A stretch of 64,000 bases of DNA, from NCBI GenBank assembly GCA_950295325.1, contig OX485809.1, positions 41,323,081-41,387,080 of the forward strand. The letters are read 5' to 3'. The stretch is from Polytrichum commune (taxonomy: Eukaryota; Streptophyta; Polytrichopsida; Polytrichales; Polytrichaceae). Both the position numbers and the translations under genes were made by a program. Below, one piece after another: positions 18,694 through 57,919 of this stretch. The notes below the pieces were generated by a model. That model did no database searches and was not told the DNA's origin. It saw only the letters and a list, made by a program, of their open reading frames with translations. The stretch's first letter is position 1. Each line of letters begins with the position of its first letter.

Positions 18694-20425
18694 GAGGGAA
18701 GGTAAGACATGAGCAATAAGTGGTTAACAGTGAACGATGAGTGGTAACACATAATTAGTGAGCAATAACACATGACAAGTGAGCAACAACACATGAGTGG
18801 TGAGTGGCAACATGTGAAAGATGGAGCCAAATTAGGTGAATATGCATGGTTGTAGGGTCCACACTCTAAATTTGGCTCTCGTTTAATTTCATTTTTCCAA
18901 GTGTAAAGTTACAACATTACCAAAAAAAACAAGAGTGTTGGGGGCCTATTACCATGGACACTTGAAATTTCTATCATTCCATTATTAATTTTTACTATAA
19001 AAATTCAAAGCAATACATGTCACTTACAAACATTATAAATATGTGGTTGAACACATCTTTTGGAGCATCACTCACTCCTTACAACACCAACAAGTTCAAG
19101 TAGTCGTATGACCTTGTTGTAGGTGAACATTGAGACGCAAATGAACTTGTCACTGTCATTATCCACCTTGCATAAAAATTTAGACACATAATATAAATGT
19201 TTGAAATAGACCCAATTCTCCTCTTTCCCAATGCATAAGAACACATTTTCGTGAAGTTGGGGCATGTGCAATGTGGGATGTCGCCGATTACGACACGGTA
19301 GGAGTTGTCTTCCCTAGAGACAATGTTGATAATTACTTTGAATCCAAGATATGGAATGGCAATGACTCCAACCACATAGTAACCTTCCATGAGCCCAATG
19401 CTCTCCCACTTGTATTTGTAATCCGTTGTGGGTGTAGATTGCGATGCATTGCCTTTGAAAACCAAGAAGTTGGGTGGACATCTGGGTTTGGGGGTATACG
19501 AAAATAAGACCAAGGGATTGGAAATATCGCAATTGTTGAGAGCCTATGCTATGGTGAGAGGGCCTCCCTCTATTGCAATTAGAACCCAATGTCTTCAAGC
19601 GCCAACACCTTTTCTTTTGAGAGATCGGTACCTATCTTCACCGGCCATGTGTTGGGTACTATAGGCCAGTCCACCACATAATTCTTCTTGTTTCTTTCCA
19701 CACAACGCTTGATGTCATTAGGGTAGACCAAAACTCATACTCTACATTGTTTGTGAAGCAAAATATTTCTTCAATCCTTTGTAAGTTGGAGTAGCAATGC
19801 CATGTTTGCCAATACCAACTTTGGCAATACACAAAGTCCATGTATTCGCTTGCATTTCCCAACATCTTGTGGTTGAGTTAAGGGGCAATCTAGCAACGTG
19901 CCATGATTGTGAAACAAGGAAGTTTTGTCTCTAAAACTGATGTATTATGAGCCATACCATGCTCTGCAAAATTTTAAGACTCCTCTATGCATGACATTTT
20001 AGCACAACCATTAGGGCGAGGAATTGAGTAGTTCACTTTGTCATGTCAATGAGAGTCACAATGAGCATCGGGTAGCAAGTCTAGTTTCTATTTGGGGGAC
20101 CCAAATAGCTTCAAGCTCTCCAAGGTAGATCTTTTGTTCCAGGAAAATATTTCATTGCATCTACAATAATTGGGATCTCCACACCTCGCTATGGCCTTCA
20201 ATTTCAAGGACGTCAAATTCGGATATTAACCAATAGATCATTTTTTTCAACCATAAGTTGTGAGATATAATATGTATGAACACACGGATCAAATTGTCAA
20301 CTATTGCTTTGTACATGCAAACCATCTTGTTCCTGGATTATTGCAACCACTTGTTGCGTACCGTTTCTACAAGGTCACAGGTTCGTTAGACAAACCAATA
20401 GGTTTGGTCGTGCAAGAGATCTTGG
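18694..20425 (-). mobile_element. MULE relic: SWIM-type transposase, 3' half
   Basis: The - strand encodes a decayed relative of the transposase at 43186-46254. Readable blocks in order are VETVRNKWL (about 20390), LFGSPK and DKVNYSIPRPN (about 20000-20100), WYWQTWHCY (about 19810), GYYVVGVIAIPYLGFK, the SWIM zinc finger HCTCPNFTKM followed by FKHLYYVSKFLCKVD, and the C-terminal LLELVGV. The lower end, GAGGGAAGG-TA-ACATGAGC at 18694, matches the terminal repeat of the complete MULE and lies at the same distance from the stop. The upstream half is missing: homology stops near 20425, next to LINE sequence. Several frameshifts and stops are present. Confidence 0.8.
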
Positions 20426-24886: not shown

Positions 24887-26179
24887 AGACATAGCAAAAA
24901 ACTTACTACAATAATGCGTACTTCTTGTAGTTGATTGTCTACAGGTTGGTAGTGCTGCTCTATGCAATGTAGTCTCTCCGTTGTGTCTTTGTGATAAAGA
25001 GTTGCTTGTATTGGCTCAATGTTGGTGACATGGAAGATTCTTCGAATGGATCCGTCTTTGTCTTTAGGAGCAATCCATTGACCTAGGGTTGGTGTGGGTG
25101 CAGGTGTCGCTTCCCATGGTATGTTGTTGCGTACCCGGGAGTAGAGGGTTGGGGTAACTCGCGTTCGGCGGAGTGACCACTGCTCTTCACATATTTTCCG
25201 GCCGTGTGCATCGGGCCTGATAATGACCTGGAGTGATCGGAGGTTTCTTCCGGGTCACCATCTCATTGTTGTGGTTGGCTCCATGCCCCATTGAACCCCT
25301 TCTTTGTTTGTGAGCATTCTGTTTCCGAAGAGCGGTTGTCTTATGAATTCCGACCACCTTGTGGGGTCTTGTTGCTCTAGTCCCGATTGCAACGTGCTCC
25401 ATGCTTTCATTACTCCTTGCCACACTATGGAGCCTTGTTTCACTAACGTTCTCGAGTTCATGATCCAGTTAGCGTGTGCCGGCCATTTTCCCCTTCTAGA
25501 TTGTTTGGTTTGGGCGACTCGGTAACGGACCATGATTTTCCAGGGTTCATATCCTACTGACAATTCCCTTATGAGCAGTTTGACCAACAGGGCTGATGTT
25601 TGCCATTGTGGATCGAGTATTTTGATTCCACCGCGTACTATTGGTAATATTGCCGTATCCCATTTCACTCTTGCCCTTGTGCTTGATTCTCTTCTCTCTG
25701 ACCACATGTAGTTGCGGACCATAGATCTTGCTAGCTTGAGTGCTTTGCCTGACAGGTATGTGCAAGATACTAGGTACCAAATGAAAGAGAGCACCACTTG
25801 ATTGGCTATCATTATTCTCCCTGCTAATGATAATTTCTGGTTGGACCATTTGAAGAGATATTTCCTTAGCTGATTTAGCATTTTTCCATTTTGTTCGTGT
25901 TGTGGTATGCAAAGGCCAAACGGGTATCCCAGGTAGCACGTAACCTCCCCTAGAAGGATCCATTTGACACCTGATGTCTCCCCCCATTGCCAGTTCCTCT
26001 CTGTTGGTGCCAACCATAGTCCCACCGACTTGTAGAGATTTAATTTTGCCCCTGATGCGGCTCCGAAGCGGTCGATGACGGTTAGTGCTCGATCCATGTT
26101 GTCTTTGGTGCCATCAAGAAATAATAGTGTGTCATCTGCAAACATTTGGTTAGTGATGGAAGTGTTGTCTCATTAATGT

Positions 26180-39402: not shown

Positions 39403-39412
39403 CCGTAGCACC
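39403..39412. other. MULE target-site duplication, left copy
   Basis: CCGTAGCACC abuts the MULE start at 39413 and is repeated perfectly at 46622-46631. Confidence 0.88.
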
Positions 39413-39964
39413 GGGGAGTGCTATCATGTGAGCGGTGAGCGATGAGCAGTAAACTTGTGAACGGTGAGTGAGGAAAGATTTTTGGAAATACACGCACTAG
39501 TACCCTATATCCGTGGTATTTTGGCATAAATAATAATATCTTTTTCTAAAATAAAATTAATGGAGAGTTAAAAAAATGTAATTATCCTCATGAATGCCTA
39601 ACTCTATTTTTAAATTCAACAACTGCAAACTTAGCTTGAGGGTTTGAAAAAGAATTTTAATATTGTTGTTGGATTCAACATCCAATTGTAATATCAATGC
39701 AAGCACCTTCCAAGTATTGCTTTGAACTGTATTTCTAAAATTCATGTAAGTTTGAGAAATGAATTGATGGAGGTAATTAAGTTTTAGGATATAGGGTTCA
39801 GGAATAAGAGGAAATTGCTCACACAATTCAATGTTCACTAATGGTGGTAATTTAGAATGATGAATCCAAACTTTGTCACACATCCAACCAAATAATATCC
39901 AATCCAATCAAATACATAGTGGATGATATTGACAACTACCTAAATGTCCCTAAACTAATTTAGC

Positions 39965-41823
39965 TTAATCATTTAGATCATCGCATTGAATCGCCTCATC
40001 ATCTACGTACGGGTTACGGGCAATCCGTGCAGACATACGGCGAGGTGTTGACATCACTGATCTTGCCATGATTTGAACAACATTTTCAACATATATTGGC
40101 AAACCCATATTCGGAAATGAATCATGTTGTTCTTTTTTCTACGAAATAAAATCATAAGTGTTAGACTTCTAGTGCACACATACCAGACATTGGAGGCCAA
40201 GTCAACAAACAATATGGAGAAATTAAAAACTTACGTTCTCAATCGATTTTTACTCGCAACCTTCTTAACATGCTCTTCATCGGAATCGATAGAGGCATTA
40301 TGTGGCATAAATCCACCTACACTAGAAGTTGGTAGTGGATCACTTAATGGAGATAGAATATCATGAAACAATGTAGAATCTTCCTCGTATGCAATTAGAT
40401 GGCGGCCACTATTTCTGCAAGCATGAATAGATGCACCTGCCAATGAAATGTTGCAATATCAGTTAATTTGCAAAAACCACTGACAACATTATAGTGACTT
40501 CATTAAAACACATTGAGAGATGATATAATAGGTCCTTGACTAAGAGATAAACCGACCTGTAGATGCGTAAGCATCGAGGACAACCGATGCGGGGGTTGTT
40601 AAAGCCTCTATTAAGATTTGCATAGATTCCGATTCCTTCTCCCTACCACCTCTCCATGACACTTTTCCATTCATGAGTTGAGTGCTCGCCGATGTGAGAT
40701 TGAATAACACATCCAAGGCCTCCACATCCACCTCAGTATTTGCGTTTCTTTTTTGAAAAACAAACTCCGACTTGGGAGTAGAACGAAGAAACAACATGAT
40801 GCGGAAACGACGAGTTTATAAAGCCCAAGAAAATCTTTAGCAGGGGATTCGAGTGCAAAATTGAGGAGAACATTGTAATACAATGAAAAAGTAGAAATTG
40901 AAGTAATAAATAATAGAATTTAATGTATACCGTCAACGACGTCTCAAGTGGATAACACAAAAGCAACTTATTGAAGCCCCACCAATCTTTTCGCAATATA
41001 AAATCATAGGAGGCTGCGAATGTCCTTACATCGTCTCTGACATCTTTCTTCTCAGGGACAAACAAAAACAAGGGGCCATCATCGGTGAGATATGCACATG
41101 CAAATTCAAATAGAGCCCTCAATGTTCTTTCTCTTGTAGTCGTTCCAAGCTGGGATTACATGTGGAGGAGATGAAACGTTAGGTACAAGTAAACCTTCTG
41201 GCAAATCTGCAATAATAAGATCAAAACCTCCAAAATTACAATCCTCTGAAGAAACCCTCCTCTTGCGTCCGGAACCCACCTATTAAAAGAACCAAAAAAC
41301 AATAATTACACTCAAGTCCAAAGCATGTTGCAAAATCAACACCATATTTTATAAAATAAAAATAAGTTCAATGTTCAATATACTAACCTTAGTCACAAAT
41401 TCGAATGTTTTCAACATTAACGGATTCTCATGACAACCATTCTCCATCAATGTTTGTATTGAAATCTTCTCCAACATCACTGAAGAAATTGGCCCAAAAT
41501 ATGAAACACCATTGACAATAATTTTTGACACATATTGAGATCGTTGTGATCTCGAAATAGGAGAAAACTTAGGTCCATGATTGCCTTGAGTGCTAGGTGT
41601 AGATGTTGAAGGACTAGGATTGCGTGCCATAATACCAATTTGAAATGAAGGTGTTGGATTACCCTCATCCACCTTTAAGCCACACTTACGTTTAGTTTTT
41701 CCCTCCGGTTTGACTACTTTCACCACACACATATCCTCATTGTTTATCATGTCAATATCATCAGGAGGCAAGTCTATTGGACATGACTGTTTCCTGAGCT
41801 CCTCCTCCCCACTTGAACAAAAT
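39965..41823 (-). CDS. Methyltransferase-like accessory gene of the MULE
   Basis: Five exons on - are supported by GT-AG sites: about 41388-41813, 40931-41279, 40557-40834, 40235-40436 and 39965-40138. Exon 1 is Ser/Pro-rich (RNPSPSTSTPSTQG). Exon 2 has DLIIADLPEG, in the position of the DPPY motif of N4/N6 DNA methyltransferases, then FACAYLTDDGPLFLFVPEKK and DWWGFNKLLL. Exon 3 has RSTPKSEFVFQ, then ESMQILIEALTTPASVVLDA-YAST. Exon 4 continues GASIHACRNSGRHLIAYEED, matching the family pattern VLDPFAGSGT...A...GR..IGIE.D. The motif order (IV before I) is that of PF01555-type enzymes. The catalytic and AdoMet motifs are altered (DLPE; YASTG), so activity is doubtful. Probable frameshifts lie near 41150, near 40815 and in the A-run at 40133-40138. 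The true first exon is uncertain and may lie in the 359-bp array. Confidence 0.6.
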
Positions 41824-41883
41824 ATAAGAGGACACTTTATAAATCATGGACAAGACTGCAAAGTGGCATAATCCCACTTTAAT

Positions 41884-43189
41884 GGTTTTTTCTTGCTTCT
41901 TCATTTCTTGTTGTTGTCGACATTAATGTTTCATTTTCAGCACCTTATAAACGCAAGGGCTAGGTGAAGGTCATGAAATCCGTACCCTCAACCTTTTAGA
42001 AATTCTTAAAGCTTCAATTTCAACCTTGAAGCTTTTTCATTGAAATTCTTTGATGCACTAAAAATCCATCAAACAAACCATACAATAACTTCCAAGCGTA
42101 CATATCAAGGCAAGATACAAGTAATGAAAATAAACAAGTGCAACAAGAAGAACAAAAACAAGACATGAAGAGGCAAAAAAAAAACCCTAAAATTCTAAAA
42201 AACCTAGTCTCAGAACCGGAACTCACTTTGTTGAAATTTTGATGTTTTCTCTTGCTTCTTTATTTCTTGTTTTTGTGGTTATTAATGTCTCATTTTCAGC
42301 ACCTTATGAAAGCAAGGGCTAGGTGAAGGGCATGAAATCCGTGCCCTCAACCTTTTAGAAATCCTTGAAGCTTCAATTTCAACCTTGAAGCTTCTTCATT
42401 GAAATTCTTTTATGCACTAAAAACCCATCAAGCAAATCACACAACAACTTCCATGCATACATATCAAGGCAAGATACAAGTAATGAAAATAAACAAGTGC
42501 AGCAGTAAGAACAAAAACAAGACATGAAGATGTAAGAAGAAAACCCGAAAATTCCAAAAAACCTAGTCTCGGAACCGGAACTCACTTTGTTGAAATTTTG
42601 ATGTTTTTTCTTGCTTCTTCATTTCTTGTTTTTGTGGAAATTAATGTTTTATTTTAAGCACCTTATAAAAGCGAGGGCTAGGTGAAGGGCATGAAATCCG
42701 TGCCCTCAACCTCTTAGAAATAATTGAAGCTTCAATTTCAACCTTGAAGCTTCTTCATTGAAATTCTTTGATGCACTAAAAGCCCATCAAGCAAACCACA
42801 TAACAACTTCCAAGCATACATATCAAGGCAAGATACAAGTAATGAAAATAAACAAGTGCAAGAAGAAGGTAAAAAATAAGACATGAAGAAGTAAGAAGAA
42901 AACCCGAAAATTCTAAAAAACCTAGTCTCGGAACCGGAACTCACTTTGTTGAAGTTTTGATTTTTTTTTTGCTTCTTCATTTCTTGTTTTTGTGGTTATT
43001 AATGTTTTATTTTAAGCACCTTATGAAAGTAAGGGCTAGGTGAAGGGCATGAAATCCGTGCCCTCAACCTTTTAGAAATCCTTGAAGCTTCAATTTCAAC
43101 TTTAAAGCTTCTTCATTGAAATTCTTTGATGCACTAAAAGTCCATCAAGCAAACCACACAACAACTTCCAAGCATACATATCAAGGCAA
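41884..43189. repeat. 359-bp tandem array between the two MULE genes
   Basis: The anchor TTGCTTCTTCATTTCTTG-like segment recurs at 41893, 42252, 42611 and 42969, giving a 359/359/358-bp period and about 3.6 copies at high identity. Read on -, several units carry a TATA-like CTTTTATAAGG, then (about 80 bp on) ATGAAGAAGCAAGAA in two units, then CAACAAA followed by the donor-like GTGAGT. The array ends on + at ATATCAAGG, where the transposase frame becomes open. It therefore occupies the promoter/5' region of both divergent genes. A conserved 68-80 codon - frame appears in three units but is probably incidental. Confidence 0.9.
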
Positions 43190-46100
43190 CCTCACGTTCA
43201 TCCTACATCATCTATATCTGATATCCATGTATTAGAAGCCCTCAAAATCACCAAATATCGTAGAAGATCCAAATCTGATCTCACAAATATTGACTTCGAT
43301 AACATTGCTATAGAAGATGTGAAGTATGTGCCGTCTTCATTCAATGAGAATGTTTTTTTCATTTTGCCACCGGTCAAGACTGGAATTCTAGATGGTTATG
43401 GCAAGACGATGGATGGCATGGACAAGATTTACGACGGACATGCCTGGTGCAGAACCAAAACAACAAACATTCAAAATGAATTTGGTTTGACTTTTCAGAG
43501 GTCTTTATGCGTTGGTCATCTCCAATATGCTAACGACTCATGTGAGTATTTTTCACGAAATGGTGGAGTTCGCAAAGGTACTGAATGGATAGGTACTACA
43601 CCCACTCCTTTCATGGTTGGTACAGACCCACCAGAGAAATCTAAGGTTCAACGCAAGGTTTGTCATGCCGCTCCCATATGTCTTGATATTTGCTATGCAA
43701 AAATTATATACGTGCATTCACAATCGTCAAACATATCCGGTGTTTGTATTCATTTAGGTGTTCACAACCACCCTATGTCTAGTGGAGTGTGTCGTGAGTC
43801 ACTACACATGGCTTACCAGTGTGTGGCAAATGAGGTGGCTAAAACTTCAACTGCAAAGAACTCGGCTATTGTCATGGCTGCCAATAAACAGTTTTTGGCT
43901 GATTACATCCTCAAATCCTCAATTCTAGGAGAAAAAAACCATCTTCATAGAGCATCATTGGAGGTGGTAATGGATAAATTCTCTACTTTGGCTTCCTCTA
44001 AATGTAGAAACTTTGTGGCGGGTTCCAAATGTTTCATTCGTAGTGGAATGGGTTCCCTGGATAGCATCGTGGCACTATAAAACTACTATGGGTTCAAATA
44101 TGTGCATAATAGTCGATTTCCAGGGCAATCCAAAGATAAGGTCTTTGTGTTCAAGATGTCTGTGGATCTTGCTGGAAGCGAAGTCGATTTGGTGAAGCGC
44201 ATGCAGTATGGAGGAGACATGGAAAATTTGTGGATCATGTTTGATCATATGAAGCGATTACGAGACTGGACTACAATGGCGTGTCATGTCTACGATAGCA
44301 AATATTGCAAGGTTCTCACAATAGCATGTTGTGATATGCAATCGGAGGATGCTCGGGCCCAAACCATTTTTTGGGAAATTTTAAATGTTGTCATGTTGGA
44401 GAATGGTGTTCCCAATGTCAATTTCAAAGGATTCATGGCGGATAGTGCCCAAGCAAATTGGATTGATGTGAGGAAGATTTACGGGAATGGTGACCCATCT
44501 GTTCCCCTCGAGGGTCACGAACGTAGATGTTTTTTTCATCGATCTGCCAATTTGGATAAAATAACACAAAAACACATCCGACCGTCATTGCAACATGAAC
44601 ACAAACAACTTTGTAAAGACTACAAGGATGCCAAGAGTTTGGAGGACGCCAACATCAAATACCATGTAATATGGGCATGGTGGTTGTTATCAAGGGCAAC
44701 CAATGAGGAGGGCATATACAACTTATCAGAATGGTTGGGGTTTTGGCATTATCGATATAGACAATGGGGAGGTCACATGCTCATTGTAAGTTTCTCCTAT
44801 ATACAAGTGCCCCTCCTCTACTATTGATAAAATTGTTGTGTCATCTCAATTTTTAAAACTAAAAATATTCCCAATATGTACTACAGGATCTGGCTTTGGA
44901 TCAGCATGCTGAGATGCCAACTTGCAACCTAGCAGAAATAGTGCATAACAAGTGGCTACAACAATCAGGGAACAAAATGACATGCTTGTACGAGGCAACC
45001 GTGGATGACATGATCCGCGCATTCATGCAAATCGCAAATTATCGTTCTTGGCTTAAAGGGGGTTCTTTAGGGAAAGGGCTAGATCAAGCATCATTGAAGC
45101 TCAAAGCTGCAGCATACACTGGTGATCCCAAGCTTCTTGCAGAGGCAATGAGCTTATTTTCTGGGGCAGAGGATCTTAATACAAAGAATTGTGCACTTGA
45201 GGGCTCTGAGTTATTTGGATCAACCAAGAGACAACTAGACTTACCACCTGGATCTGAGTATGATTCTCATCGTCCCGACAAAGTGAACTACTCCATCCCT
45301 CACCCTAATACAAGGTCAACGAGGGCACGCATAGATGAATCCTTCAAGCGTGATGAGAATGTGGTGTCTCACACCACTAATGTGTTGGGGTCAGATTGTC
45401 CTAAATCCCAATGGTATATTTCACGATTGTCTTATCCGTCCAATAAAGAGTGTCAGGCATTGCAGGCCAATACTGGACATCCATGTAGGGCTAAAGTTGG
45501 GAAAAGTACACATGGCACACCTGTGCCAACGTACACAGGCATGAAAAAATAATACCGTTCCAACAACCATGTTCCAACAAATTTTTGGTTTTGTGCATAT
45601 TATATTAATCGATGTGTGAAGGGGAGCAAGAAGAAATGGGTGTTTGATTGGCCAAATCTCCCTAAGGTGTGGCCAGTGAAGGTTGGTACAAACCTTACAC
45701 GGGAGGAGGTGTTTGCATTGGAAGATGTTGGGTTTCAACTGCAACAGAAAGAGGCACTGTCACCACATCGTCGATTGAGAACAATGACAAACCTCCCCAT
45801 CCCTCGTTCATATTTCTGTGTTCCTCCAAACCCAAATGCGCATCCAAACACACGGTTTTCCAAGGCAGTTCGATGGAACATGGCAACACCATTATCAAAC
45901 CACATGAATAAATGGGAGAGCGCATTACACATGGATGGGTATTATGTGGTTGGTGTGACTCCCATTCCATACCCTGGATATGGATGCATCATAACCATAG
46001 TTTCCAAAGAAGAGAAGACATACCTTGTCTCCATTGCAGATATTCCACAATGCACTTGCCCGGACTTTGTGAAAATGTTGTCTTTGGCAGTGGGAAAAAG

Positions 46101-46254
46101 GGGTAAGTGGGTTTCATGCAAGCACTTGTATTACGTGTTCAGATATTTGTGCAAGGTTGACTACGCCACTGACAAGTTCATTCATGCACCGACATTCAGC
46201 TACAATGAGGTGATGCGACTTCTTGAGCTCGCAGGTGTTGCAGAAGAGGCGTAG
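43186..46254 (+). CDS. MULE transposase with WRKY/GCM-like and SWIM zinc fingers
   Basis: The protein frame opens near 43186 after an acceptor-like ATATCAAG (upstream exon unknown) and runs to TAG at 46254, with one intron at 44786-44886 (GTAAGT...CTACAG). The N-terminal third has spaced cysteines ending GVHNHP, the C...HxH arrangement of the WRKY/GCM-type cluster in MULE and FAR1 proteins. The middle has VHNSRFPGQSKDK, VLTIACCDMQSEDA, GFMADSAQANW and RRCFFHRSANLDK, the DDE-type core followed by a C/H segment. The C-terminus has the SWIM finger QCTCPDFVKM ... WVSCKHLYYVFRYLCKVD. Two compensating frameshifts near 44030 and 44080 and an in-frame TAA at 45550 interrupt it; the rest is open. The relic at 18694-20425 is the same family. 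Confidence 0.82.
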
Positions 46255-46621
46255 TGACATATGGGTGAAGGGCATGGACACAATTATTCATCATTTTTAC
46301 ATATATAGAAATAGTTGTGTATATCCATATGAAATGTATGTAGTACAAACTGATGGTACAACTAAATAGTTGTTTGTCACAATAAAGTGCTCGACATGTC
46401 AATAAAATGCCTATCACCGTGGATCAACAAACTTCCTGAAATCCATGGTAATAGGGCCGAGTTCAATACATTTTTTTCCCACAATTTTTTTTTCATAATA
46501 TATAATCCAACTATATTGGAATATTTTCTTTTAAAATCCTATTATTGGTCATTTTTTTGTTGACTGCTCACATGTTACCGCTCACTGCTCACTGCTCACC
46601 GCTCACATGCTAGCTTCCCTC

Positions 46622-46631
46622 CCGTAGCACC
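46622..46631. other. MULE target-site duplication, right copy
   Basis: CCGTAGCACC directly follows the MULE end at 46621 and is identical to 39403-39412. Confidence 0.88.
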
Positions 46632-55158: not shown

Positions 55159-57546
55159 CTAAGTTTCTCCTCCATAGCGAACCTTCTGAGCTTTCCAATC
55201 TGTTATGGCCGTTTGGTAAGGGAAAATGTTCAAGGTATAAAAGTCTTGCGCAAACATGCGGACCACCAAGTCTAGGTGGGTTGTAAGCCGGTTCCTCAAC
55301 TTGCTCTTCAAGAAGGACAAGGAGCTAAATGTTCTCTCATCTTCCACACTACCCAACACTTGAACGTGAGCAATCTCAACGACTTTCATGAACTCGGAGA
55401 GTTTCGCTGAAATGAAGGCATTGCTAGAAAGCTTGCGCCAAAGTCGGGACATCGGGTTTTCGGTCATGGGTAAGGCTATGGCAGCTTGGGCATTTGATAT
55501 CATGGTGATTTTGAAGAAGGAGCTTTGGAGCTCTAGGTTGCGGATGTCAAGGGGTGGAGGCACCCACTCCTCAGCATCCTCGGTCTCAGCATCCACAGGT
55601 ACCCACAACTTCTTCGCTGTCCCATAGAATGATTTCAGTGTTGCAATATGCCCAGAATATGTAGCCTCGAATGTATCATTCAGCCAATATTGGGGGTAGC
55701 ATATCCCCAAAGCACACATCACCTCTTGGTGAGGGAACCTCTTCTCTAACTCCTCTATAAGTTGTTTCGCTGCGCTGGTTAATTGCCGCTGCACCTCACC
55801 AAGGATGACCTCACGGTCAATCTTGTTCACCTCTTCCCACTGCCCTGGGAAGGCTACTGATCTCATGGTTGCCATGTGGGGCACACATGCAACCCTGAAA
55901 ACCAGGTGGTCTTCCTCACGATTGTAGCAGAACAACCAATCTTGTTCGATTACCATGGACGTGTCATATGCTAGTGACCGAAATGTGCTAAACTCCTCTC
56001 CGTGGAAAGCAAAGGTTGGATCTACATAAAGTCAATATAGATCACCCTGGCATATCTTGGCCGCAGAAATGAAATCAACAATGTAACATGCTGGACTTTG
56101 TGCAAACTTGATGAGGGAATTCACAGAGTGCAGCATGGGCATCAAGCGAGGTAGGGTGAGCATGTTCTGCCAATCTAGGAGAATGGAAAGGTTCTTCTTT
56201 GCTGCAAGCTCCTTGGGCGCATCCACTGCCATCTTCGTCACCAACGGTTTGTATTCCTCAAGCACCCTCCTTGCAGGTCCAAACATGGATATCCAACGAG
56301 TCTTGACGTTTCTAAGTATCTTGTTGCCTTTGGATTCCAAGCAAGCTGCTAGCTTCTGGAACTCAAGACTGCGTTTGGAAGACGAACTGAAGTAAGAGTA
56401 CAGCGCTGCCAAAAGATCTTCTACATGTTTCACCACCTCAAACTCGGATAGGGTTTGGACAACAAGATTCGTGCGGTGTGCCATGCAATGGACACCCACC
56501 ATGAAAGGAGCGTGCTTGTTGATAAGTTGTACAGTGACACCGGATTTAGCACCTTGAAATGTAGAAACCCCATCTGCCCCAAATGTGATCAACCTTTCCC
56601 TAATCTTCTGCTCGGTTAGACCTCCATAAGCGCGAGCATCATTGACAATGACAGTAGTAAAATTATCAGCTGTCCCTCCTTCAATAACTCTATCTAGGGT
56701 AAGGAGTACAGGGGTTCGCTTCCAATCTATCACAACATAACCATGGACACTAATGCATGACTGACAGTCCACAGAAGTAACCTCATCACAAGACAAACTA
56801 AAGAAGTTAGCAACCTGCATAACCTCCTTTGTTCTCTTCAGCATAACACGCTCTATCGCCTCTGCCATTGCCCACCCACTATTGTCACTCCAGTGGTGGT
56901 GTGGATTGTTCTTTAATTTGAGGGTTTCAAACAAGATGTACATTTGCTCATAGTTTGTGATAGGTCTACCTCTCTAGAGCAAGTGTAAGAGGGTAGTAAA
57001 CTATATCCATTTATTCTTCCTATCTTTAACCGTGTTCTCTGCCACTTGGGCCGCAATACAATTTGTGGGGATGGCTGCAAACAGTCTTTCATTTTTTAGA
57101 TGGATAGAATTAAAATCCATGTACTTCTCCCCTACAACAACCCCATGACCATGACCCTTAGCGGTTTTCCTCCCTTGATGCTTCCAAAGATTATCGCTCT
57201 TAGCACACAAAATTATAGACTTCCCTCGGATTTTAGAGCAGACTTTGCAAATTACCTTTGTGACCTCATCACCTTTGTAGATGGGTTCCGCCCAAGGGAA
57301 AATTGGCAACCATAGGAGTTGGAATTGACGAGTCTTGTCATACGTCTTTTTATTGACACTAGACTCTACCAACGGAGTTGCTGGTTGCACATCACCATCA
57401 CCAAGGGTCAGGATATCAACATCAGAGGGGGGCACATGACTACTACTAGCGCCATTGGGATCAGGCCTAGAGAAAAATCTTCTAAATTTGAAACCTTTTG
57501 GAAGGGCAAGAGGTGGAGCCATGGTTATGGTCACAACTATGGCCAA
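55159..57546 (-). pseudogene. hAT transposase, one long frame with three stops
   Basis: A single reading frame of about 795 codons runs from 57546 to 55159. Order: a likely start at MAPPLALPKGFKF (57522), a BED-type zinc finger region (ICKVCSKIRGK ... NLWKHQGRKTA), a catalytic block (FFSLSCDEVTSVD, LITFGADGVSTFQGA, VGVHCMAHRTNLVVQTL, KTRWISMF), a connecting region (RLMPMLHSVNSLIKFAQ) and the C-terminal dimerisation region (VLGSVEDERTFSSLSFLKS-KLRNRL). This is a nearly complete hAT protein of the BED/KIAA1586-like type. In-frame stops are TAG at 57001, TAG at 56974 and TGA at 56032, each inside conserved text (NKWI-stop-FTTLLHLL-stop-RGRPITNYEQM and DLY-stop-LYVDP). No frameshift was found. 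Terminal repeats were not located. Confidence 0.88.
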
Positions 57547-57919
57547 AACGAAGAAAATAACAAAAAGAAGGCACCCAATGACCTAACAACTTCAAACTAC
57601 AAACAAGACCACCTAAAAAACCAACCAACAAGGATTTAAAGCACTTAAGGTTGCAATCACAAATACATGCGGCGAAGGGGAGCCGAAAACTAGCAAAGGA
57701 TGCGTCCTACCAAGGATGAAACACTACTTTAGCAATGAGAGAACCCACAAAAACCTCACCAAAACATTGGAAAAGGGTGAGAGGTCCGAAGACCACAAAA
57801 GAGGGCGGTTGCCCATGGGAAGAATGCTCAAAAATATGGCTACAGCCTATATATGTGAGGTATTTCTCCTCAAATACAAGGAGAGGGCCACAAGAACATG
57901 TCCCATAACCCTTGTCCAA

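Follow-up and report, generated by a model that had tools for sequence, protein, structure and literature searches.

Why should a plant DNA transposon carry a gene that resembles a methyltransferase? The question is raised by a 64,000-nucleotide stretch of the Polytrichum commune genome (contig OX485809.1, positions 41,323,081–41,387,080; hereafter, the window), which contains a 7,209 bp transposable element with a transposase on the + strand and a multi-exon second gene on the – strand. The matches described below indicate that the second gene descends from a prokaryotic- or phage-type amino-methyltransferase (N6-adenine/N4-cytosine class, PF01555), and a survey of the genome indicates that it is a resident gene of the element family, rather than a one-off passenger. 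The role that we tentatively favour, with a confidence just short of even, is that of a VANC- or MURB-like accessory gene, in which the methyltransferase fold would have been made into a self-directed DNA-binding regulator by a mechanism that we infer.

An earlier note on this DNA, made from the letters alone, had described the element as having inverted ends and a perfect 10 bp duplication. This was borne out: the element (window positions 39413–46621) is bordered by identical 10-mers, and its ends form a 31-nt terminal inverted repeat (TIR) that is 90% complementary and composed of short repeats. The TIRs are as expected of a Mutator-like element (MULE), and the duplications observed across the family, at 9–10 bp, fall within the expected 8–11 bp. 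Among the ten elements with both ends, nine have perfect duplications (the window element, L016–L020, EB, T21 and T23), and the duplication of the other (EA) agrees at 8 of 10 bases. The relatives of the element fall into subfamilies, here called types 1–5; the window element is of type 1, and the first 24 nt of its left TIR are identical in all five other fetched type-1 copies. The features of the window element are as follows (window coordinates).

39403–39412, no strand: left target-site duplication, CCGTAGCACC, the same as 46622–46631.
39413–39450, + strand: left TIR, containing short repeats that resemble GTGAGCGG; 31 nt of it are 90% complementary to 46584–46614.
40235–40436, – strand: second gene exon 4, encoding ASIHACRNSGRHLIAYEED, which covers the last part of motif I and the acidic end of the strand that follows (six-copy comparison).
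40557–40770, – strand: second gene exon 3, encoding WRGGREKES...LIEAL...VVLDAYAST (start of motif I); acceptor CCCAAG, phase-consistent, in five of six copies.
40931–41279, – strand: second gene exon 2, with DLIIADLPEG at the motif IV position; frameshifted by one base in the window.
41388–41813, – strand: second gene exon 1, linker-like, with a provisional start; open in the window and in L017, with stops or deletions in the other four of six copies.
41885–43189, + strand: 3.6 copies of a 359 bp tandem repeat, between the divergent genes (TRF and repeat search).
42008–42035, no strand: 28-nt palindrome (stem 10, loop 8) in repeat unit 1 (palindrome search).
42367–42394, no strand: 28-nt palindrome GAAGCTTCAA-N8-TTGAAGCTTC in repeat unit 2 (palindrome search).
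42726–42753, no strand: the palindrome of unit 2 again, in repeat unit 3 (palindrome search).
43130–46254, + strand: transposase frames (open reading frame list), with in-frame stops after 44077 and 45549.
46584–46621, – strand: right TIR, an inverted-repeat match to the left end.
46622–46631, no strand: right target-site duplication, CCGTAGCACC, the same as the left flank.

The multi-exon structure proposed for the – strand gene is supported by its splice borders: four exons are seen, with GT/AG borders kept in most of the six type-1 copies. The one correction concerns exon 3, which begins at 40770 rather than 40834 because the reading phase demands it. The window and L018 have 349 nt in exon 2, as against 348 nt in the other four of the six copies, and the one-base frameshift of the window copy is missing from four of the five others. 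Exon 4 is stop-free in all six copies, with the AG border kept in six and the GT border in five. The window copy is dead and able to make neither protein, because the transposase contains two in-frame stops and exon 2 of the second gene is frameshifted; the argument that follows therefore depends on its relatives.

On what grounds is the second gene called a methyltransferase? The earlier note had pointed to a likeness with PF01555-type N4/N6 enzymes, and the profile checks that it proposed bear this likeness out as homology. Firstly, the joined window product matches PF01555 over residues 318–367 (E=4e-5, 24.1 bits, just below the 26.7-bit gathering cut-off), and a relative at C1:9661226–9662956, consisting of an uninterrupted 577-aa frame (stop to stop), does so over residues 309–524 (E=1.1e-7). 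The type-2 scores (32.4 and 34.7 bits) lie above the cut-off, a type-3 exon scores below it (12.7 bits), and all five members of alignment A2 match the family. Secondly, a six-sequence profile run against the PDB retrieved DpnA (5hek, 3.4e-5) and other methyltransferases (0.0016–0.0019), the next row being an unrelated DARPin at 0.023. Thirdly, five of six second-gene members match PHROG DNA methyltransferases, and hhalign against phage methyltransferases gives a probability of 95.2 (E 2.8e-8, 62 columns), whereas two pairs of mismatched domains score 0.1 and 0.2. The PF01555 and DpnA alignments fall on exon 3. Most of the homology score comes from the motif I half, while the motif IV half aligns collinearly but contributes little.

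A profile search for relatives gave 54 matches, mostly short exon-like proteins on ENA, JGI, NCBI or LGN contigs (P0002 and 22 others were read). The 408-Mb genome comprises 64 contigs, seven of them large, and the presence of rbcL on contig C8 points to a plastid-bearing host, a plant or alga. When this genome was scanned exon by exon with PF01555 at E≤1e-3, five matches were obtained, two on these elements and three on small prokaryotic-looking contigs; no host donor gene was among them, in a scan that also missed most element copies.

Is the second gene a regular part of the element? Searching the genome with the element DNA yielded 77 matches from the 38 candidates scored (of 2045); 52 of these rows were clustered into 35 loci, and the 25 short rows omitted coincide with those loci. 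Eight loci besides the window matched on both sides, and all five of those fetched contain both genes in divergent order, flanked by perfect 9–10 bp duplications. When the window gene was used as a protein query, 101 of 2256 candidates were scored and 168 matches emerged; the 150 rows listed represent at least 66 loci. In all ten two-ended elements the second gene and the transposase are on opposite strands, and the divergent layout for which the earlier note suggested a genome-wide search was found in four diverged subfamilies (types 1–4). Transposase-side matches occur in 29 of the 35 loci, the window included. The second gene was shown at 12 of these 29 (10 via the protein search and two via fetched flanks) and is absent within 9 kb at one, in a census that covers 13 of the 29; with so small a share of the candidates scored, the lack of a row says little about the absence of the gene. 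These counts neither establish nor exclude the outcome that the earlier note named as fatal to its proposal, namely that most related copies lack the gene.

The subfamilies differ considerably in size and completeness. Type 2 comprises two copies (on C1 and C4; 15.2 kb and, including a nested insertion, 19.8 kb) with the same TIR, a + strand transposase and a – strand second gene; the duplication is perfect in the C1 copy (AGGTAACAGA) and agrees at 8 of 10 bases in the C4 copy. Type 3 accounts for 41 of the 84 rows listed (76 of 1417 candidates scored), 38 of which are stop-free over the matched stretch. Three type-3 copies with flanks have the same TIR and a divergent transposase (in T21, a C-terminal piece only), and duplications are perfect in both copies whose right end was covered. 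Type 4 was recognized among four loci that showed only the transposase half in the DNA search. Three of these have a diverged second gene at the corresponding position and in the same orientation (40–51% amino acid identity to type 1 in aligned pieces), and the fourth (L030) has no second gene within 9 kb. Type 5 is represented by two copies that contain the second gene and a GGGGA-type terminus, with the other end and the transposase side outside the fetched stretch; their near-identity (99.4% over 6.5 kb) suggests recent activity. Six loci match the window element on the second-gene side only (e.g., C7:1029769–1032220 and C6:27518542–27520991), and their other half may be from another transposase lineage. 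In both type-2 elements there is, in addition, a multi-exon stretch resembling protein kinases (PF00069, 1.8e-7 for the joined exons), which in EB lies at C1 ~9.65–9.66 Mb, upstream of the methyltransferase part of the second gene; no such stretch was detected in three type-3 elements or in the type-4 and type-5 stretches tested.

Does the protein still transfer methyl groups? The catalytic consensus of motif IV is (D/N/S)PP(Y/F/W), canonically DPPY, and that of the S-adenosylmethionine motif (motif I) is FxGxG. Measured against the former, most copies read depart from the consensus, having [D/Q]hP[E/D] at motif IV: DLPE in five of six type-1 copies (DLPK in the sixth) and in both type-4 copies, DIPD in two of three type-2 frames (DIPY in the third), DIPE in the single type-5 frame read, and QFPD in type 3, where the fourth position is D in all 21 copies covering that stretch and one copy has S for P. 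Metagenome relatives vary at the same motif (P0013, QFPY; P0008, QIPN; P0006, NFPN). Motif I reads STG in types 1 and 3 and GTG in types 2 and 5 (type 4 was read only in part). Since motif IV is altered in most copies and motif I in two subfamilies, catalysis by the second-gene product is doubtful; since the acidic replacement at motif IV recurs across subfamilies, the function has probably changed to a non-catalytic one, as in METTL14 (EPPL), a precedent for a non-catalytic partner. Of the methyltransferase use that the earlier note had envisaged, the derivation stands, and DNA methylation itself is thrown into doubt.

The best-placed rival to an accessory regulator is nevertheless an active N6-adenine/N4-cytosine methyltransferase that marks the ends or arrays of the element, for instance protecting excised DNA or opposing silencing. 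Activity may persist in types 2 and 5, because GTG is kept in both and DIPY is present in one type-2 copy; the homology to PF01555 and the QFPY of metagenome relative P0013 point the same way, as do published cases of retrotransposon-borne enzymes that methylate (PMC5890265). On the other side stand the acidic, rather than aromatic, residue at motif IV in most copies and the STG, rather than GxG, of types 1 and 3, and we consider an active enzyme unlikely.

What, then, might a non-catalytic protein recognize? As described for VANDAL elements and VANC, the noncoding tandem repeats of these elements are specific to the subfamily: the arrays between the genes have units of 359 bp in type 1, 105 bp in type 2 (one copy) and 32/64 bp in type 3, and type 5 has a 94 bp array upstream of the second gene. 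For type 4, TRF reported no array in the stretch L027, which nonetheless has internal repeats. Several arrays contain palindromes. In type 1, these recur in units 1–3 of the window element (with a degenerate form in the fourth unit, at 43084–43111), and their significance is marginal: they are equalled by two of 500 shuffles, and by nine of 300 under another score. The type-2 palindrome is equalled by none of 300 shuffles, and those of two type-3 arrays by one and none of 300; TGTGCG-N4-CGCACA is common to types 2 and 3. For six control arrays of the window, the corresponding counts are 18–196 of 200. Shuffle counts of this kind overstate the palindromes somewhat, because the feature was picked after being noticed. 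Elements T22 (L025+L022) and T23 (L026+L023) have GTTTGGGTCG-NN-CGACCCAAAC palindromes in two places, one between the genes and the other in the transposase region, at what resembles an intron.

A further domain lies upstream of the methyltransferase part. Types 2–5 share a conserved exon, VPLCR (IPLCR in type 2)...GY...KMF.xW(D/E)GNH...AW, with 33–55% identity to the type-5 sequence and with W-x-G-N-H and A-W invariant; the domain was not found in any of six type-1 copies at E≤0.1. An identity with ParB/Srx was considered and rejected: the likeness to DGNHR is by eye only, Pfam and PDB profiles were negative, and the hhalign probability was 0.1. Pfam, PDB profiles and hhalign likewise found no homology to nucleases. 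Phages have ParB–methyltransferase fusions, and such genes also occur on two prokaryotic-looking contigs of this assembly. On contig C10 (47 kb, GC 63–64% in the stretches read), L010 and L012 show ParB_N (below cut-off) and N6_N4_Mtase matches; on contig C12 (61 kb, GC 49%), L011 shows ParB_N and N6_N4_Mtase matches in one gene.

The invariant residues of the upstream domain also bear on a second rival, in which the protein acts directly in transposition (through end binding, synapsis, target choice or nicking) and not in the control of silencing. Such a role would fit the conservation of the domain in types 2–5, the palindromes inside the transposase region in type 3, and the link of maize MURB to insertion. 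However, type 1 has moved with clean duplications although the domain was not found in its copies, and no nuclease homology was found for the domain in the other types; a direct part in transposition is, in our estimation, less likely again than an active enzyme.

How long has the gene been part of these elements? Between types 1 and 4, exon 2 of the second gene has proportions of synonymous (pS) and non-synonymous (pN) differences of 0.81 and 0.33, respectively (108 codons), and exon 4 has corresponding distances (dS and dN) of 1.65–1.99 and 0.50–0.52 (65–66 codons), while the transposases of the same two types differ by a dS of only 0.29–0.39. Types 2 and 3 repeat this contrast, with second genes at dS 2.04 and dN 0.70 (108 codons) and transposases at dS 0.36 and dN 0.05 (455 codons). 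Two type-4 copies of the second gene differ by dS 0.18 and dN 0.06 (112 codons). Because pN lies far below a high or saturated pS, the comparisons indicate that the second gene is under long-term constraint at the protein level; they also indicate that it has a deeper history than the transposase of the same element. Given second genes at dS of at least 1.65 or saturated and transposases at 0.29–0.39, an exchange of half-elements (i.e., modules) would be the simplest account of the contrast, with a locally higher rate as a possibility. The last of the three rivals, a captured Pack-MULE passenger gene that is useless to the element, seems to us very unlikely: MULEs do capture genes, type-2 elements carry the kinase-like gene as well, and recent copies show no significant constraint, but the position and orientation of the second gene agree across four subfamilies, its deep pN is well below pS, and the PF01555 scan described above found no host donor, albeit having missed most element copies.

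Several observations weigh against an accessory regulator under constraint, in addition to the GTG and DIPY motifs already mentioned. The palindromes of types 4 and 5 are not above chance (equalled by 65 and 67 of 300 shuffles, respectively), and the comparison of type-1 and type-4 transposases spans only 80 codons. Among recent copies, no significant deficit of replacement changes is seen in type 3 (22 copies; singletons, P=0.17; shared changes, P=0.18) or in type 1 (six copies; P=0.78 and 0.97), type-1 copies are 94.8% identical in exons and 95.6% in introns, and the methyltransferase part of the type-2 pair has a dN/dS of 0.96 on 14 changes. The sole low count is that of stop codons among type-3 singletons (one, versus 4.9 expected; P=0.04); pairwise pN/pS in this type is 0.51, and 19 of 22 copies are stop-free in the stretch. 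Weak recent constraint is what decaying transposon copies would show, though this is not positive evidence. An AlphaFold2 model of P0003 (18-row alignment) was unusable, with a pLDDT of 43.8. Finally, the Pfam MULE transposase domain (PF10551) matches neither the window pieces nor the less broken transposases of types 2 and 3.

This last result affects the name given to the element. The + strand transposase, which the earlier note called a SWIM-type MULE transposase, is interrupted by the two stops listed above and shares homology with those of the other subfamilies. It contains one intron at ~44786–44886, placed by eye, and its first frame begins within the repeat array, at a provisional start. 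A SWIM-like CTCPDF...CKHLYY (a C-x-C...C-x-H pattern near the C-terminus) is seen near 46050–46130; the four window pieces have no Pfam match, and the Pfam SWIM matches of relatives' transposases are both under the cut-off (E 0.039 and 0.076), with the cysteine/histidine pattern visible. MULE is thus a working label, because it rests on duplication length, TIRs and the SWIM-like pattern. Elsewhere in the window, positions 19082–19543 (– strand) hold what remains of another transposase of this family, from its SWIM-bearing C-terminal part (by eye, from the open reading frame list), and reverse-transcriptase-like (25258–26169, – strand) and hAT-like transposase (55162–57582, – strand) frames were recognized by eye only.

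How would an accessory regulator of this kind work? We propose that the protein would have largely lost methyl transfer, given that the aromatic residue of motif IV is mostly Glu or Asp and the motif I glycines are altered in two subfamilies, and would retain the methyltransferase fold as a DNA-recognition module. With the conserved upstream domain, in the long subfamilies, it would bind element-specific sites, probably the palindrome-bearing tandem arrays that separate the two genes. Once bound, it may counter silencing or set the expression of the element, in the manner of VANC (VANDAL) or MURB (MuDR); a rapidly diverging, exchangeable second-gene module would be in keeping with an arms race between the element and host silencing. 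A more specific version, to which we give some credence while thinking it on balance rather improbable, is that of a catalytically dead, phage-derived reader of family-specific palindromic arrays, with reader and array passed as one module between transposase lineages. Were this so, a eukaryotic transposon would have taken over the recognition half of a restriction-modification-like system to recognize its own DNA, and the family would illustrate clearly how a modification enzyme can become a non-catalytic reader within a mobile element. Few accessory proteins (VANC, TET/JBP) are known in molecular detail for the ways in which DNA transposons escape or shape host silencing. A large, diversified family offers a testable case, in which the fold predicts a DNA target and the arrays provide candidate sites.

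Which known systems does the element resemble? VANDAL elements are MULEs, and maize MuDR with mudrB is similar in having two genes in one MULE, the second of which is not a transposase; MURB is not known to be related to methyltransferases, which sets it apart from the gene described here. MuDR is named as a MULE in PMC12730594. VANC acts on its own elements, where it binds tandemly repeated noncoding sequences that diverge rapidly, and removes silencing (PMC10398659, in part). The likeness extends to the presence of a second gene in a MULE, the diverging noncoding repeats, and the diversification of the second gene between families; unlike the gene described here, VANC is not described in that portion of the paper as methyltransferase-derived, and VANDAL TIRs are called degenerate there, whereas those of the present elements are clear.

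Transposons with modification enzymes form a further point of comparison. DIRS, LINE and Gypsy retrotransposons of dinoflagellates and Klebsormidium carry DNA methyltransferases, as set out in the relevant part of PMC5890265. These resemble our elements in bearing a DNA methyltransferase homologue (Dam-like adenine enzymes in the case of DIRS) and differ in being retroelements, in carrying mostly C5 DNMT enzymes, and in that activity has been shown for some (PMC5890265). Fungal DNA transposons with TET/JBP, HarbingerS and MuDR elements of Phytophthora with SET, and the VANDAL regulators are described in PMC12730594; the TET/JBP and SET transposons are likewise DNA transposons with acquired epigenetic enzymes, and are unlike ours in enzyme class and host. 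A plant MULE with a PF01555-derived methyltransferase gene was not found in searches of open-licence literature, judged mostly by titles and the first lines of abstracts, and the text of PMC6446971 contains no occurrence of 'methyl'. The phage ParB–methyltransferase fusions share with the second gene a C-terminal PF01555 region that follows another domain, and differ in that the upstream domain of the element does not match ParB. Transposons with epigenetic enzymes are, in short, already known; what appears to be new in P. commune is a PF01555-derived gene in a plant MULE.

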